Shown: one piece after another, positions 38,078-45,315 of the stretch
Layout: each line of letters opens with the position of its first letter
Numbering within the stretch: position 1 is the first letter of the stretch
NCBI GenBank assembly: GCA_003132405.1
Contig: PKXQ01000058.1
Span: 1-64,000, forward strand
Direction: 5' to 3'
Length of the DNA: 64,000 nt
DNA from: Acidobacteriaceae bacterium
Lineage (GTDB): Bacteria > Acidobacteriota > Terriglobia > Terriglobales > Acidobacteriaceae
Made by a program: the position numbers and the translations under genes
The notes under the pieces: generated by a model
The model's database searches: none
What the model was told of the DNA's origin: nothing
The model's input: the letters and a program-made list of their open reading frames with translations, nothing else

Positions 38078-39814
38078 TTAGGGCGTTTTAGCTCGCGCCC
38101 GCTCCCGCTTGGCGTCCTCGGGGCGGCCGGTGTGGTCGTAGGCGTCGGCGAGGGCTTGATGGCCCGGGGAGAAGCCGGGTAGGCGTCCGGTGGCGATCTC
38201 GAGGTGAACGACCGCTGTTTTGTATTCGCCAGTTTTTAGCAGGGTAGCGCCAATCTCGTAGTGTGCCCATGCGGAGTCGGGCTGAAGCTCGATGGCGGCA
38301 TGCAGATGCTTGGCCGCTTCGGCGTATTGGCCTTTGCGGGCCAGGTCGGCTCCCAGGGTGTATTGCGCGAGATAGAGGTTGGGGTCGGAGGCGACTACGG
38401 AGCTCAGCGCGGCTACGGCGCGATCTGGTTTGGACTGGTCGCGCGCCGAGGCTGCTTCGATTACTTTGTTGGCCGTCGCAATTCTGTCTTTCGGGTCGGT
38501 GCCAGCAACCGTGGCGGCGGAACTCGACGACTTTTGCATTCCTATGTATCCAAGCGAAGCTAGCTTCTGCATCTCGGAAGAACTCGATTCGGCGGAAGTC
38601 TTGCCGGCATCGGCGTTGAAATGGCGTGTGAAGTTATCGACCTGCGCCGACATGGTGTCGAGCGTGGCCTTCGAACTCTGCGCTAGATTGTGGGTGGCTC
38701 CTGGATCGGCAGTTAAGTCGTAGAGTTCGGGTTTGGGGGCGCTGATGTAGAGATATTTGCCGGCGCGCCAGGATTCCAGCGGGCTCCAGCCGAAGCCGCG
38801 TTGAGGTAGGTCGGCACGGGAATAGACGGGCTGGTCGCTCCCGCCTCCAGCTCTCGCTATGCGGAACAGAGACTGCCCTTGCATCTGAGAGGGAACGGCG
38901 ATGGCGGCGATTTCGAGGAGAGTGGGAGCGACGTCGACCAGCCGTACTTTGGCGGCAACGCGAGAGGTCGCTGGCTTGGCGGCGGGTTCGACCTGAGGGA
39001 GTTTGATTAGCAGCGGGACGTGGATGGTCTCGTCATAGAGAAAAATGCCATGGGTGTCTTCGCCGTGAGCTCCGAGGCTCTGGCCATGGCTTGCCACTAC
39101 TATCACTGCGGTATTTCCGTATATTTTGCGCTGCTGCAAGGCGCTGATCAGCTTACCGACGGCGGCATCAGCTGCGGTGACGGCCGCATTGTAGGACGCG
39201 CTTGGCACGTCCGCATCGCTGATGTGAACCCAGAGAAAGAATTGTCCCGGTGCCTGCGCATTGTGGTCGAGCCATGCGATGGCGCGGGAGACGACCTCGG
39301 ATCCGCGGCGCTCGGTGACGGGAGGACGCGAGTCGCCGGGAATTGCAGGCCGGAAACCGGCATCGTAAGTTTGGAAGCCGCGGTCGAAACCCTGCGCTAG
39401 TCCGTTCTGCGGGTCGAGATCAATCGAGCTGACGAATGCGGCGGTACGATAAGACTGCGCTTTGAGCAGGTCTGGAAGATAGGCAAGAGATGTGGGCAGT
39501 GTACCTCCGATCTCGGTCATGCCTGTGCTCTGCGGATAGGTGCCGGAAAGAATACTGGAGTGCGAAACGACGGTGGCGGGTGCCTGGGCATAAGTGTGAT
39601 CGAAGACGATGCACTCTGCCGCGAGGCGGTCGAGATTGGGAGTGAGCGCACCTTTCGCGCCGAGGAAGCCCATGTGATCGGCGCGGGCGGAATCGAGTGT
39701 GATCAGCAGCAGGTTTGGTTTGGATGCGGCAGCGGCGAAAGAAATAGAAAAAAGGAACAGACCCAGGCCGGCGAAGGCCTTTCTTGTCATTTCAATAATC
39801 GGCATAGTAATCAT
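38078..39814 (-). CDS. Sulfatase-family protein with C-terminal TPR repeats, possibly inactive
   Basis: Alkaline-phosphatase-superfamily protein with a signal peptide (TRKAFAGLGLFLFSISFAAA), a sulfatase domain (about 30-360) and TPR repeats (about 480-570). The first metal site is kept (ITLDSARADHMG, Asp 41), and the nucleophile region reads ATVVSHSSILSGTYP rather than CXPXR, as in other sulfatase-TPR proteins. The second metal site is altered: VVASHGQSLGAHGE where relatives have VTADHGESLG; Ser 242 replaces Asp. Its inner tail has MQKLASLGYIG. Start is uncertain (ATG 39814, 39805 or 39790). It is divergent from the phosphodiesterase cluster. Confidence 0.8.
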   Translation of the reverse strand: MITMPIIEMTRKAFAGLGLFLFSISFAAAASKPNLLLITLDSARADHMGFLGAKGALTPNLDRLAAECIVFDHTYAQAPATVVSHSSILSGTYPQSTGMTEIGGTLPTSLAYLPDLLKAQSYRTAAFVSSIDLDPQNGLAQGFDRGFQTYDAGFRPAIPGDSRPPVTERRGSEVVSRAIAWLDHNAQAPGQFFLWVHISDADVPSASYNAAVTAADAAVGKLISALQQRKIYGNTAVIVVASHGQSLGAHGEDTHGIFLYDETIHVPLLIKLPQVEPAAKPATSRVAAKVRLVDVAPTLLEIAAIAVPSQMQGQSLFRIARAGGGSDQPVYSRADLPQRGFGWSPLESWRAGKYLYISAPKPELYDLTADPGATHNLAQSSKATLDTMSAQVDNFTRHFNADAGKTSAESSSSEMQKLASLGYIGMQKSSSSAATVAGTDPKDRIATANKVIEAASARDQSKPDRAVAALSSVVASDPNLYLAQYTLGADLARKGQYAEAAKHLHAAIELQPDSAWAHYEIGATLLKTGEYKTAVVHLEIATGRLPGFSPGHQALADAYDHTGRPEDAKRERARAKTP

Positions 39815-39889: not shown

Positions 39890-39917
39890 TTGACGGGCGG
39901 GTATCTCCTTGTACAAT
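39890..39917 (+). promoter_or_regulatory. Promoter of the phosphodiesterase cluster
   Basis: TTGACG (39890-39895), 16-bp spacer, TACAAT (39912-39917), reading toward the lipoprotein gene at 40005. It lies in the divergent spacer with the sulfatase-like gene. Confidence 0.65.
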
Positions 39918-39949: not shown

Positions 39950-39970
39950 GTGGTGATCTTGTATCACCAC
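39950..39970. promoter_or_regulatory. Perfect 8-bp inverted repeat in the 5' leader
   Basis: GTGGTGAT pairs with ATCACCAC across a 5-base gap (CTTGT), about 30 bases past the -10 box. It could be an operator or an mRNA hairpin. Confidence 0.5.
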
Positions 39971-40004: not shown

Positions 40005-42044
40005 ATGGCCCACCGTGAAGCTGGAGCAGATTACTTGCAGATACTTGTAGTGACCGCACCCTTCAGAAAACGCGTCCGTCTTGTATGCCTGCTGGCGCTG
40101 TGCGCCTCGGGGCTGAGCTTCCTGCTCTCTTGCCAGCGCGCTCATGGCGGAGCGGCTCGGTCGAAGAAGATGATCATCCTCGGCGTCGATGGGCTTGATC
40201 CGGACCTGCTGACGAAGTTTATGGCCGAGGGCAAGATGCCGAACTTTGCGCGGCTGGCCGGGGAGGGATCTTTCCGGCGTTTGACGACCAGCATTCCGCC
40301 GCAGAGTCCGGTGGCGTGGTCGAACCTGATTACTGGGATGAACGCGGGCGGGCACGGAATCTTTGATTTCATTCACCGCGATCCGAAAACTTTTCAGCTT
40401 TATTTTTCTACATCGAAGGTCGAAGGACCTAAACATAGCTTTCATCTTGGGAGTTGGGTGATTCCTCTGGGCAGCGGGTCGGCCGAGCAGTTGCGCCATG
40501 GCAAGGCTTTCTGGGAGATTCTCGACGAGCAAAGTGTTCCCAACTACGTTTATCGCATTCCCGCCAATTTTCCTCCGATCACGGCTAAGGGCAAGACGCT
40601 ATCTGGCATGGGCACGCCCGATCTACGCGGCACGTATGGCACATTTACTTTCTATACCGACGATCCGACAGCGGCCGTCGGCGCGATCGAAGGCGGAGAA
40701 ATTGTGCAGGTTGACGTGAAGAATAATCGGGTCACGACCAATCTGATTGGGCCGGACAATAGTTTTCGCAAGAACTCGCCTCCAGCGACGGAGCCGTTCA
40801 CGGTTGATGTGGATCCGCTGGAACCGGTGGCGCGAATAGGCTTGCAGGATCAACAATTTGTTTTGAAAGAAGGCGAGTGGAGTGGGTGGGTTCCGGTGGA
40901 ATTTCAGCTGATGCCGGTGATTGGAAATGTGAAGGGGATCTGCCGCTTTTATCTAAAGCAGACACATCCGCGTTTTCAACTTTACGTTTCGCCGATCAAT
41001 ATCGATCCCGAAAATCCTGCTCTTCCTATTTCGACGCCGACTAGTTATTCGAAGGACTTGGCGAAGCAGATTGGCGAATTCCACACACAGGGGATTGCCG
41101 AAGACACGAAGGCGCTGACCGCTGGGGTGCTCGACGATAAGGAATATCTCGAACAGGCGCATACGGTACTTGCCGAACATCGGCGGGCATTTGATGTTGA
41201 GTTCCCAAAATTTCATCAGGGACTGTTCTTCTTTTATTTTTCGAGCCTCGATTTGAACGGGCATATGATGTGGCGACTGACCGATCCGCAAAGTCCCGCG
41301 TATGACGCCGCACTGGCCGCACAGTATGGGGGGGCGCTGGAGGAATTTTATGAGCAGATCGATCAGGTGCTCGGAGAGGTGCTGCCGAAAGTCGACAATA
41401 ATACGACGCTGCTCGTGCTGTCCGATCATGGATTTGCTCCTTATCGGCATTCGTTCAACTTGAATACCTGGCTGCTGAATCATGGCTACATCACACGCAA
41501 GGAGGGCGCTAGCGGTGATCCGAACGAGCCTTTCTCTGACGTGGATTGGAGCCGCACGCGCGCTTACGGGCTGGGATTGAACGGTCTCTATCTGAATATT
41601 CGCGGACGCGAGCGCGAGGGCATCGTCGAGCCTGGGGCGCAGGCTGATGCGCTGCTCAGCGAAATCCGGCAGAAGCTTTTGGATGTGCGCGATCCGAAAG
41701 ATGGATCGCAAGTAATTACGCGAATCGATTTTGCTAGCGAGGCCTATCAAGGGCCGTATGCGCGCACGGGGCCGGATGCGCTGGTCGGTTACAACCGCGG
41801 CTATCGCGCGGGGTGGAAAACGATTCTGGGGGCGTTTCCGCCGGATGTGCTCGAGGACAACACAAACGCGTGGAGCGGCGATCATTGCATGGATTTTACG
41901 AAAGTTCCGGGGGTGCTGTTGAGCAACCGGAAGATCGCTGCGCAGGCTCCGGCATTGACGGATATTGCACCCACGATTTTGTCGGAATTTGGAATCGCAA
42001 AAACGAAGGATATGATGGGGCAGTCGGTGTTTCAGTCGCGGTAG
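40005..42044 (+). CDS. Lipoprotein phosphodiesterase of the alkaline-phosphatase superfamily (COG3379-like)
   Basis: 679 residues. A lipoprotein signal ends at LLSC (40-43). The type I phosphodiesterase/nucleotide pyrophosphatase core has GVDGLDPDLLTKFMAEGKMP (metal Asp 62), the nucleophile region SPVAWSNLITGMN (101-113), DLNGHMMW, LSDHGFAPYRHSF, SRTRAYGLGLNGLYLNIRGR and WSGDHCMDF. The protein belongs to a family of unknown substrate. ATG 40005 lacks a ribosome binding site; TTG 40035, with GGAG 10 bases upstream, may be the true start. First gene of a cluster of four, paralogous to the fourth. Confidence 0.85.
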   Translation: MAHREAGADYLQILVVTAPFRKRVRLVCLLALCASGLSFLLSCQRAHGGAARSKKMIILGVDGLDPDLLTKFMAEGKMPNFARLAGEGSFRRLTTSIPPQSPVAWSNLITGMNAGGHGIFDFIHRDPKTFQLYFSTSKVEGPKHSFHLGSWVIPLGSGSAEQLRHGKAFWEILDEQSVPNYVYRIPANFPPITAKGKTLSGMGTPDLRGTYGTFTFYTDDPTAAVGAIEGGEIVQVDVKNNRVTTNLIGPDNSFRKNSPPATEPFTVDVDPLEPVARIGLQDQQFVLKEGEWSGWVPVEFQLMPVIGNVKGICRFYLKQTHPRFQLYVSPINIDPENPALPISTPTSYSKDLAKQIGEFHTQGIAEDTKALTAGVLDDKEYLEQAHTVLAEHRRAFDVEFPKFHQGLFFFYFSSLDLNGHMMWRLTDPQSPAYDAALAAQYGGALEEFYEQIDQVLGEVLPKVDNNTTLLVLSDHGFAPYRHSFNLNTWLLNHGYITRKEGASGDPNEPFSDVDWSRTRAYGLGLNGLYLNIRGREREGIVEPGAQADALLSEIRQKLLDVRDPKDGSQVITRIDFASEAYQGPYARTGPDALVGYNRGYRAGWKTILGAFPPDVLEDNTNAWSGDHCMDFTKVPGVLLSNRKIAAQAPALTDIAPTILSEFGIAKTKDMMGQSVFQSR

Positions 42045-42072
42045 AGCGCTACAAACACGAACGGGAGAAATC

Positions 42073-42276
42073 ATGTTTGGGTCACACAAGGTGAAGATCG
42101 AAGGCGAACTGCTGGAGAAGGTCAAGCAGTGTTCGGATGCGGCCGGGTACGAATCAATTGATGAGTTCGTTATCCACATGCTGGAAAAAGAAACCAAGAA
42201 AATTATTCCGGACGAGAGCAGCACGTCGAAAGAAGAAATACAAAAACGCCTGCGCGGATTAGGGTACATCGAGTAG
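42073..42276 (+). CDS. Small ribbon-helix-helix-like protein with a LGYIE tail
   Basis: 67 residues. SHKVKIEGELLEKVKQCSDA, then AGYESIDEFVIHMLEKE, has the strand-helix-helix pattern of Arc/MetJ-type proteins, but lacks obvious strand DNA-contact residues beyond KVKIE. The C terminus EEIQKRLRGLGYIE resembles a motif commonly seen at or near the end of sulfatase and phosphodiesterase proteins. It lies 28 bases after the lipoprotein gene and one base before the next gene, clearly in one operon. It could be an accessory or regulator of the cluster; not assigned. Confidence 0.65.
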   Translation: MFGSHKVKIEGELLEKVKQCSDAAGYESIDEFVIHMLEKETKKIIPDESSTSKEEIQKRLRGLGYIE

Positions 42277-42277
42277 C

Positions 42278-43096
42278 TTGACCGCTCTCTACAACCCGAC
42301 GGCTGGCTATGCGGCTGCGCTTGCGGCTTTCAGCTGGCTGACCAGTCCGCTGGCGATTGTGATTGCGCTGTCGCTGGTGGTCGGGCTGCTGATGGTGGTT
42401 TTATTCGGCTATACGTCGGATCAAAAAGCGATTGGAATTGCGAAGGATCAACTGAAAGCTCACCTGCTGGCGGTGCGGCTTTATCGCGATCAGATCCCGG
42501 TAGTGATGGGGTCGTATGGCAAGATTCTGCGCGGCACGGGGCGTTATTTGAAACTCGCGTTCAAGCCGCTGCTCTACGTGATTGTTCCGATCACGTTGTT
42601 GATGGTGCAGGTGGATCGCTATCTGGGGCAAACTCCGATTGCTGTGAACGCGCCGTTTTTGCTGACGGTGCACACGACCACTGGCGAGGCGCTGAATGAC
42701 GCTGCTCTGGAGCTGCCGCCTGAGATTACAATGACCGCGCCTCCGGTACATGTTGTGGCGGAGAACGAGGTCGTCTGGCGATTGGCTGGCGCGAAAGGCG
42801 GCAGGTATGCATTGAAGATCGGCGCCGGCGGCCAGAGCGTGGAAAAGGCGGTTTGCGTTGGCGGGGATCTGCCGCGTATTTCGACGGTCCGTTTGCGCGG
42901 GAAATTTTGGGAGCGGATGTTCTCGTCGGCGGAGCCTGCGATACCGGGGGATAGTCCGATTGAGTCGATATCAATCAATTATCCGGATCGAGACATTGCG
43001 GTCGCGGGTTATGAGATGAACTGGATTTGGATGTTCTTTGTCTTATCGATGGTGGCGGGATTTGTGTTTAAGGAACTTTTGGGGATTCAGATATGA
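42278..43096 (+). CDS. Three-TM membrane protein resembling EMC3/TMCO1 (DUF106, Oxa1 superfamily)
   Basis: 272 residues. A first TM (about 25-45) leads to a cytoplasmic charged helix pair starting TSDQKAIGIAKDQLKAHLLA, then KLAFKPLLYVIVPITLLMVQ (second TM, about 95-113), as in DUF106 proteins. Unlike those, a ~125-residue beta-rich periplasmic part (120-245) and a third TM (about 248-268) follow. TTG 42278 is the only usable start. It overlaps the next gene by four bases (ATGA). I find no annotation that fits the whole; the EMC3 resemblance needs a profile search. Confidence 0.5.
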   Translation: MTALYNPTAGYAAALAAFSWLTSPLAIVIALSLVVGLLMVVLFGYTSDQKAIGIAKDQLKAHLLAVRLYRDQIPVVMGSYGKILRGTGRYLKLAFKPLLYVIVPITLLMVQVDRYLGQTPIAVNAPFLLTVHTTTGEALNDAALELPPEITMTAPPVHVVAENEVVWRLAGAKGGRYALKIGAGGQSVEKAVCVGGDLPRISTVRLRGKFWERMFSSAEPAIPGDSPIESISINYPDRDIAVAGYEMNWIWMFFVLSMVAGFVFKELLGIQI

Positions 43097-45315
43097 AAAG
43101 ATCGTGTGGAGCGGGCGCCCTCGCCCGCTTGCGTGGATTGGCCATCAAGTTGGGACGTGGTCGCCCGTCACTGCAAAACGAGCGCCGGCCTTTCGCGGGC
43201 GGGTGTGTCCGCGCCACACCATTGTTGCTGATTGTCCTGATTTTTCTACCTGCCCTTGCTCATGCGTATGCCGGTCCGGGCGCGGGATTTGCGGTGCTGT
43301 CGTCGTTCTGGGCGATCTTCGTTGCGTTTCTTTATTCGTTTTATGCGCTGATGACTTGGCCGTTCCGGCAGTTGTTTCGTTTCTTGCGGCGGCGCAACGC
43401 TTATGGAAAAGCAACGTTTGAGCGGGCGGTGATTTTGGGATTTGACGGTATGGATCCGGAACTTGCCGATCGCTTTATGAAAGAAGGCAGGTTGCCGAAT
43501 CTGTCGAAGTTGCGCGACCAAGGAACCTTCAGCAAGCTTCGCACTACATTTCCGGCGATTTCTCCGGTGGCATGGTCGACGTTTATGACGGGAGTGAATC
43601 CTGGGAAGCACAACATCTACGACTTCCTGGCGTGCGACAGGAATAGTTATCTGCCGTATCTTTCGTCAGCTGAAATCAAGGGGCCGAAGCGCCATATCAA
43701 GATTGGCAAGTATTCAATACCGTTTGGGAAGACCGAAATCAAGGCGATGCGCAAGGGGACGCCGTTCTGGCATTGGCTAGGCGATGCGGGGATTTTTAGT
43801 TCGGTGATTCGCGTTCCGGTCACGTTTCCGCCGGAGAAATTTCAAGGCGTGCTGCTTTCCGGAATGTGCGTGCCCGATCTTAAGGGAAGTCAGGGCACGT
43901 TTTGTTTCTGCACCACTCGCGCTTCGAGCGACAAATTTCGCGAGGGCGGTGTGCGCATACCGATTGAGCGTAAGAACGGTGTTTGCCGATCGTTTGTGCC
44001 GGGGCCGGATAATCCAGTGAAGGAGAACGCCGGCGAAGTGCGCATGGAATTTGAACTCAAGCCAGAAGTGGGATCGAAGCAGGCGCGTTTCACGGTAGGC
44101 TCAGAGAAGTTTACGTTGAAAGTCGGCGAATATTCCGAATGGATTACCGCCGAATTCAAGGCCGGCATGGGCTTTACAGCGCATGGCATTTGCCGTTTCT
44201 ATCTCAAGGAACTTTCGCCGGAGGTTGAAGTTTACGTTACGCCGGTGAATATCGATCCCGGACATCCCGATCTGCCGATCTCACACCCGGTTACTTATTC
44301 AATTTATCTGGCGAAGCTTTTTGGGCCATATGCCACGCTCGGACTCGCGGAAGATACGTGGGCCCTGAATGAGCATGTGCTCGATGATGATGCTTTTCTG
44401 GCGCAGGCTTATGGCAATCACGAAGATCGCGAGCGCATGCTCTTTGATGCACTCGATAAAACCAAGCAAGGGCTGTGCACCTGCGTCTTTGATACGACCG
44501 ACCGCGTTCAACACATGTTCTGGCGCTATCTGGAGGAGGATCATCCGGCGGCGCGCGATGTTCCGCATAGCGAGCATCCGCAGGTGATTCAGGATCTTTA
44601 TGAGCGCATGGATCGGCTGATCGGGCGGGTGATGGAAAAAATTGATGAAGACACGCTGCTGATGGTCATTTCCGATCATGGGTTCAAGTCCTTTGCGCGC
44701 TGCATGAATGTGAATGCCTGGCTGCATCAGAATGGGTATCTCGCGCTAAAGGAAGGTAAGACGGAGAGTGGCGATTGGTTCGAGGATGTGGATTGGTCAC
44801 GCACGCGGGCTTACACCATGGGCCTCAACGGACTTTATTTGAATATCAAGGGTCGTGAGAAGCAGGGAATCGTCGATCCATCGGAAGCGGAAGCGTTGAA
44901 GGCCGAGTTACAGAAGGGCCTGAACGGGTTGGTAGATCCGGCTTCTGGCGCGATTGGGATTACAGGCGTGTTTATTGCCGACAATATTTACCGCGGACCC
45001 TACACGGAGAATTCCCCGGACCTGATTGTCGGCTATGGCGCGGGCTATCGCGCTTCGTGGGATTCGGTGATGGGCAAAGTCACGTCGCAGATTTTTGAGG
45101 ACAACATCAAGGCTTGGAGCGGCGACCACTGCATCGATCCGCGATTGGTTCCGGGCGTTCTATTTTCGAGTCACAAGTTTGTAGAGGAAAAGCCGGCGAT
45201 TGTCGATGTAGCGCCGACGATTTTGAAACTGTTTGGGCTGGCGCTGCCGGCACATTTCGACGGCAAACCGTGGACGCTGGCGACGAAGGCGAGTGCGGTT
45301 ATGCCTGCGTCTTAG
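43093..45315 (+). CDS. Membrane-anchored phosphodiesterase of the alkaline-phosphatase superfamily
   Basis: 740 residues. After an odd Gly/Arg-rich lead (residues 4-43, made from an inserted repeat) come two hydrophobic stretches (about 43-58 and 66-90) separated by AYAGPGAGF. The catalytic domain follows: GFDGMDPELADRFMKEGRLP, SPVAWSTFMTGVNPGKHNIY, TTDRVQHMFWRYLEEDHPAA, ISDHGFKSFARCMNVNAWLH, RTRAYTMGLNGLYLNIKGRE, WSGDHCID. It matches the lipoprotein gene at 40005 over the entire domain, so they arose by duplication. Coupled to the preceding membrane-protein gene (ATGA). Substrate unknown. Confidence 0.85.
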   Translation: MKRSCGAGALARLRGLAIKLGRGRPSLQNERRPFAGGCVRATPLLLIVLIFLPALAHAYAGPGAGFAVLSSFWAIFVAFLYSFYALMTWPFRQLFRFLRRRNAYGKATFERAVILGFDGMDPELADRFMKEGRLPNLSKLRDQGTFSKLRTTFPAISPVAWSTFMTGVNPGKHNIYDFLACDRNSYLPYLSSAEIKGPKRHIKIGKYSIPFGKTEIKAMRKGTPFWHWLGDAGIFSSVIRVPVTFPPEKFQGVLLSGMCVPDLKGSQGTFCFCTTRASSDKFREGGVRIPIERKNGVCRSFVPGPDNPVKENAGEVRMEFELKPEVGSKQARFTVGSEKFTLKVGEYSEWITAEFKAGMGFTAHGICRFYLKELSPEVEVYVTPVNIDPGHPDLPISHPVTYSIYLAKLFGPYATLGLAEDTWALNEHVLDDDAFLAQAYGNHEDRERMLFDALDKTKQGLCTCVFDTTDRVQHMFWRYLEEDHPAARDVPHSEHPQVIQDLYERMDRLIGRVMEKIDEDTLLMVISDHGFKSFARCMNVNAWLHQNGYLALKEGKTESGDWFEDVDWSRTRAYTMGLNGLYLNIKGREKQGIVDPSEAEALKAELQKGLNGLVDPASGAIGITGVFIADNIYRGPYTENSPDLIVGYGAGYRASWDSVMGKVTSQIFEDNIKAWSGDHCIDPRLVPGVLFSSHKFVEEKPAIVDVAPTILKLFGLALPAHFDGKPWTLATKASAVMPAS
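43104..43219 (+). mobile_element. MITE-like insertion at the N terminus of the phosphodiesterase gene
   Basis: A 116-bp stretch with imperfect terminal inverted repeats, GTGTGGAGCGGGCG at the left and the reverse complement of GTGTGGCGCGGACA at the right (11 of 14 bases). Next to the left end is a strong hairpin, AGCGGGCG with CGCCCGCT around loop CCCT (43110-43129). It is read in frame as residues 4-43 of the protein, which look unlike a signal peptide. No clear target duplication is visible. Confidence 0.5.

Follow-up and report, generated by a model that had tools for sequence, protein, structure and literature searches.

Four adjacent genes of an Acidobacteriaceae bacterium (GCA_003132405.1, contig PKXQ01000058.1), here labelled A, B, C and D, form one operon, which we tentatively read as encoding a single membrane-associated enzyme system that would act on a membrane-embedded ester from both faces of the membrane, with C as a conduit or bridge. 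The window, in what follows, is the whole 64-kb stretch that was analysed, positions 1–64,000 of the contig. In the mechanism that we propose, D would be held by its anchor in the cytoplasmic membrane and have its catalytic domain on the inner side, its paralogue A would work on the outer face, and C would span the membrane between them. B would be a small cytosolic ribbon–helix–helix (RHH) subunit, docking on the phosphodiesterases via its RLxGLGYI tail. A phospho- or sulfo-ester carried by a lipid or lipid-linked substrate might be formed, cleaved or transferred by D and A, each from its own side, and head groups or intermediates would cross between leaflets by way of C. It is the association of paralogous enzymes on opposite faces with a protein of the Oxa1 type that suggests an ester embedded in the membrane and approached from either side. 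The gene set, its synteny, the homologies, predicted topology, active sites, tail distribution and sulfation neighbours come from sequence and model; from these we infer complex formation, a lipid substrate, movement through C and docking of B.

The four genes are read from the forward strand. Gene A (40005–42044, 679 aa) encodes an exported phosphodiesterase of the alkaline phosphatase superfamily (PF01663) with the lipobox LLSC; gene B (42073–42276, 67 aa) an RHH protein ending in the tail RLRGLGYIE; gene C (42278–43096, 272 aa, TTG start) an EMC3/DUF106-type membrane protein of the Oxa1 superfamily; and gene D (43093–45315, 740 aa) a membrane-anchored PF01663 phosphodiesterase, the catalytic domain of which is predicted to be cytosolic. 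The original prediction had placed all four frames at these positions and had seen one operon in their spacing, and both points are confirmed: the gap is 28 bases between A and B, a single base between B and C, and C and D overlap by four bases. The consensus promoter that it proposed is real, a sigma-70-type TTGACG-N16-TACAAT (39890–39917, forward strand), found once against 0.2 expected by shuffling and kept in relatives. The upstream alignment of these relatives favours GTG 40050 over ATG 40005, and GTG 40050 is probably the start of A. Within the 5′ coding part of D, ahead of its signal peptide, a dispersed REP-like repeat (GAGCGGGCGCCCTCGCCCGC ... GGGCGGGTGTGTCCGCGCCACAC) is present in frame at 43105–43219 of the window; pieces of it match 16 further sites of the genome, and similar insertions are found in relatives.

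Conserved synteny of the four families was the main check that the original prediction had called for, and it is widespread. A search for C in 61 related genomes retrieved it from 24, and the loci examined among these hold A, B and/or D homologues around C, down to 30% identity in C. Among 396 Acidobacteriota genomes, C is present in 101 and B in 111; every one of the 101 has B as well (100 by match, G335 by reading its locus), and the 11 genomes with B only display weak B-like matches. A D profile run against GTDB contigs picked out 80 named loci (numbered with an L below), 18 of which are cut by contig ends. The full set of D, A, B and C is found in 59 of the 62 informative loci that remain. 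Since L180 and L188 are devoid of A, and L183 of C, the full four-gene set is not obligatory; the variant operon of L180 and L188 reads D-B-C, then a cytosolic phosphodiesterase. The order is mostly D-A-B-C, with A-B-C-D in the clade of the window (Terriglobia). The labels of the locus records span about ten phyla, including Acidobacteriota, Aminicenantes, Calditrichota, Nitrospirae, Planctomycetota, Deltaproteobacteria, Poribacteria, Bacteroidota, Omnitrophota and Eisenbacteria, these names being MAG labels, some possibly wrong, in a list biased to relatives of the window's D. Of 149 sampled Planctomycetota genomes, 31 were matched by the C profile, and a search for C on plasmids found none. 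Because it recurs across phyla, the arrangement is not due to chance. Gene distances co-vary (r=0.92 for A–D, r=0.88 for C–D), values which shared ancestry alone yields. Candidate A–B or D–B fusions (open frames of 805, 728 and 468 aa around B, in G351, G395 and G099) proved to be out-of-frame open reading. In most Aminicenantes loci a third PF01663 enzyme, signal-less and about 430 aa long, is encoded just 5′ of D (L097:9072–10367, reverse strand, and similar).

Both A and D fall in PF01663 far over the Pfam cut-off (E=4.6e-33 and 7.3e-38, respectively) and are about 42% identical, so that two paralogous phosphodiesterases do frame B and C, as had been proposed. The six metal ligands (D, D, H, D, H, H) and the serine nucleophile are found in 63/63 A and 63/63 D sequences, one D being truncated at the last histidine, and because of this invariance both proteins are predicted to act as enzymes. 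They share their catalytic fold, the position of the nucleophile and the metal ligands with NPP and COG3379-like members of PF01663, but differ from them in a large middle insertion, in an invariant HxI(F/Y)DF after the nucleophile, and in forming an obligate-looking pair, D facing the cytosol and A being exported. Formylglycine sulfatases (PF00884), considered as another identity for A and D, are excluded: the signature [C/S]-x-P-x-R is absent, its place being taken by SPVAW in both, invariantly so in the D alignment.

The two enzymes had been described together as ectophosphodiesterases, and this stands for A while it fails for D. An export signal is carried by 62 of 63 A proteins, Tat-like in 30, a lipobox by strict pattern in 21, and another Sec or transmembrane signal in 11; the extracellular catalytic domain typical of ectonucleotide pyrophosphatases is thus a trait of A and, by prediction, not of D. 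The N-terminus of D comprises in 63/63 sequences a signal peptide (its end AxA-like in 62/63), a transmembrane segment (TM) and a strongly basic linker. In the window, the signal peptide, which ends in AHA, is followed by a YAGPGAG motif and the TM (43216–43362, forward strand), with the basic linker next. The 30 residues after the TM carry a net charge of +7.2 (range 4–11) throughout the 63 sequences, and it is this linker which, under the positive-inside rule, places the catalytic domain of D in the cytosol: D should face inwards, and A should be exported. Past the signal peptide, the stretch Y[IVA]GPGAG (residues 59–65 of D) hardly varies across phyla and has no Pfam match.

The protein that would link the two faces is C. 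On the forward strand it is made of TM1 (residues 24–46; 42347–42415), a basic cytosolic helical region extending to residue 96, TM2 (residues 97–116; 42566–42625), an extracytoplasmic Ig/filamin-like beta-sandwich (residues 118–199; 42629–42874) and TM3 (residues 249–268; 43022–43081), collinear with residues 173–198 of MJ0480. Compared with 177,635 PDB sequences, a profile of 62 C sequences had MJ0480 (5c8j) as its sole significant match (E=5.5e-9), spanning TM1, coil and TM2, with a collinear stretch at TM3; the earlier assignment of this three-TM protein to the Oxa1 superfamily and DUF106 is in this way upheld by the family profile. PF01956 (EMC3_TMCO1) is matched weakly by 22 of the 62 members (best 3.6e-7), most being under the Pfam cut-off. 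The first half of the window's C scores E=0.23 and 11.7 bits, and the C of L137 18.1 bits, under a gathering cut-off of 27.1 which is the threshold of a curated family, not a biological feature; a Pfam-level search for EMC3 in the window's own genome gave no match. The AlphaFold model (pLDDT 93.6, pTM 0.81) displays the three TMs, and the predicted topology is N-out/C-in: loop 1–2 has a net charge of +6.9 vs −1.2 for loop 2–3, and is the more positive in 60/63 sequences. Residues 118–199 superimpose on Ig/filamin-like folds of the PDB with Z up to 6.3 and an rmsd of 2–4 Å over 70–80 residues. Such Ig-like matches filled the list of the PDB fold search, from which MJ0480 is absent, and this has no bearing on the membrane core.

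As in MJ0480 and the EMC3/TMCO1 proteins, TM1, basic cytosolic helices, TM2 and TM3 follow one another in the same order in C, together with a DQK-like motif after TM1 and a (K/R)xxLGI-type C-terminus; C differs in being bacterial, in its Ig-like extracytoplasmic insert between TM2 and TM3, and in being encoded with phosphodiesterases. YidC (PF02096) belongs to the same superfamily, but C has fewer TMs and lacks a positive charge in the middle of the groove, a residue which is strictly conserved among YidC homologues according to PMC8920935. In the family alignment, residues 24–43, 97–113 and 249–264 are free of K or R, save for one sequence at residue 24. The conserved polar residues within the membrane are all neutral (S32, Q111 and S257), S32 and Q111 being invariant. 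Position 44, at the cytosolic end of TM1, is K or R in 71% of the family and G in the window's C. At the place corresponding to the Ig-like insert, bacterial YidC has its h4h5 hairpin (PMC8675477). A separate YidC is present in the window's genome and in 11 of the 12 other genomes checked. Owing to the missing mid-membrane charge and to this separate YidC, C is best described, from its sequence profile, as a bacterial protein distantly related to the EMC3 type, a superfamily relative outside PF01956 itself, and not the housekeeping YidC.

What would such a protein do between A and D? Insertases of the Oxa1 superfamily scramble lipids via the same groove (PMC10491306), and this makes a conduit role of C plausible. 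MprF, which combines head-group chemistry at the inner leaflet with translocation to the outer leaflet (PMC11980842), provides an analogy for how the system might work and nothing further, as MprF is a single protein of different chemistry with no sequence relation to A-B-C-D. The suggestion of lipid head-group transfer remains the better of the two that the original prediction put forward, the other being insertion or assembly. The more precise proposal, in which C, instead of inserting proteins, would open a way across the bilayer for lipid head-group chemistry, clamped between inner- and outer-face phosphodiesterases, with a docking tail, common to sulfation enzymes, provided in trans by B, must be deemed unlikely as it stands. 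The nearest rival to a conduit is a pure scaffold: the Ig-like domain would hold A outside, the cytosolic helices would hold D and B inside, nothing would pass through C, and A and D would be coupled, or would regulate each other, across the membrane. We find this doubtful. The conserved extracytoplasmic domain and basic cytosolic hairpin are what a scaffold would need, the groove has no charged residue, and 17 of the 62 C members display a weak, sub-threshold likeness to membrane anchors of the LapA type (PF06305; best 4e-4, the window's C scoring 17.6 bits against a cut-off of 28); however, retention of an Oxa1-type core with invariant S32 and Q111 would then be left unexplained.

The RHH fold that had been suspected in B is indeed adopted by its residues 1–46, for which the top VIA-align rows are NikR, AmrZ, CopG and Arc (Z 5.0–5.4); among 55 B members the most frequent Pfam match is RHH_1, a weak one found in 18. 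No B homologue has a signal peptide. While this fold is common to RHH repressors and antitoxins, B differs from them by adding a tail helix, RLxGLGYI, typical of the neighbouring sulfatases. This tail (R/K-L-x-G-L-G-Y-I/L), which is KRLRGLGYIE at 42244–42273 of the forward strand and is common to sulfatases and APS kinases, is nearly invariant and the most conserved part of the protein. Among genes of the loci, the motif [RK]Lxx[LM]GY[ILVFM] is carried by 75/76 B and by 26/34 sulfatases, and by none of 206 A, D or other PF01663 proteins nor of 678 other ORFs. In the membrane sulfatases of L138, L144, L146 and L173 it is placed at the very C-terminus; in the sulfatase adjoining the window's operon it follows the catalytic domain and precedes the TPRs. 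One APS kinase (P0006) carries RHH and tail together as a fusion; others have just the tail (P0007; L154, L156). Because elsewhere in the loci the tail is carried almost exclusively by sulfatases and APS kinases, B is probably an enzyme subunit. Going by this shared motif, the tail may be a docking element that B would give in trans to A and/or D, themselves without it. Five PDB sulfatase alignments, sought to show where the tail packs, end short of the tail region. APS kinases with a B-type RHH and/or an RLxxLGYI tail (L093:7262–7999, reverse; L104:4472–5104, reverse; L154:8707–9315, forward; L156:7578–8414, reverse) adjoin cytosolic PF01663 enzymes of 430–550 aa and small B-like proteins.

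A likeness to NikR, CopG, Arc and AmrZ could make of B an autoregulator of the operon, standing outside the enzyme complex, and the leader does contain the inverted repeat noticed at the outset, GTGGTGAT-CTTGT-ATCACCAC (39950–39970, forward strand). Yet the alignment of relatives' upstream regions shows no conservation of this palindrome, even with B more than 90% identical within the genus, and it is probably not the operator of B. The tail common to sulfatases, and not the RHH part, is the most conserved portion of the protein, and the same RHH–tail unit is fused to an APS kinase, so that we consider autoregulation somewhat unlikely.

The other suggestion of the original prediction, in which C would be devoted to the insertion or assembly of D and possibly of A or further clients, seems to us improbable. 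It would fit with membership of C in the Oxa1 superfamily and with the translational coupling of C and D by their four-base overlap in the window's clade. A short translocated N-tail is a typical feature of Oxa1/EMC substrates, and D would keep one ahead of its TM once its signal is cleaved. However, D brings a cleavable-looking signal peptide of its own, the genomes carry a separate YidC, C is without the mid-groove charge, and in most phyla the order D-A-B-C leaves D and C uncoupled.

Enzymes of sulfation are recurrent neighbours. A PAPS-type Sulfotransfer_1 gene adjoins the operon in about 14 independent loci of several lineages (17 matches, three being duplicate records), often 13–141 bases downstream of C; most loci have no sulfotransferase within the flank searched. 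In L144:15195–15803, L153:7561–8133, L157:6052–6618, L167:6101–6730 and L173:15206–15817, a small sulfotransferase (SGLPRSGTSMMMKML...DNPxGYYE) is encoded directly 3′ of C. ATP sulfurylase or APS kinase is nearby in L138, L154, L156 and L173, and tail-bearing sulfatases adjoin the operon in many loci. The window's own, a TPR sulfatase with the motif LASLGYIG after its catalytic domain (38078–39814, reverse strand, divergent from the operon), is a conserved neighbour in Terriglobia without being part of the core; an APS kinase and several sulfotransferases are also encoded elsewhere in the window's genome. Beyond the sulfatases and sulfotransferases, clustering of genome context brought out no universal further partner, the other flanking genes being lineage-specific, and no lipid-synthesis gene as a constant neighbour. 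Taken as genome context, these neighbours speak for sulfo-esters no less than for phospho-esters. That A and D belong to a sulfation pathway, handling sulfated metabolites or nucleotide by-products of PAPS-dependent sulfotransfer, would account for these genes and for the fusion of a B-like RHH and tail to APS kinase, but is hardly likely, as most flanks hold no sulfotransferase, A and D are without the CxPxR signature, and the paired topology and C would go unexplained.

Every part of A-B-C-D belongs to a known superfamily. To our knowledge the system has no described counterpart. As the original prediction had also surmised, the open-access literature that we searched contained no account of the four-gene set, of its topology, or of a bacterial EMC3-type branch with an Ig-like insertion, and nothing relevant on COG3379, on bacterial DUF106/PF01956 or on RHH proteins associated with phosphodiesterases. 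One study (PMC8675477) treated every PF01956 sequence from outside the archaea as eukaryotic EMC3/TMCO1; bacterial C homologues are widespread in Acidobacteriota and Planctomycetota. Bacterial homologues of the EMC3 type within a two-faced enzyme operon would bear on the way in which Oxa1-type proteins diversified, and they touch on the question of whether a groove of this type can serve lipids or small substrates instead of polypeptides. The operon also gives a common context to hundreds of genes annotated as ‘hypothetical’ or ‘alkaline phosphatase family’, and it points to a putative docking tail, common to phosphodiesterase systems, sulfatases and APS kinases, which is directly testable.
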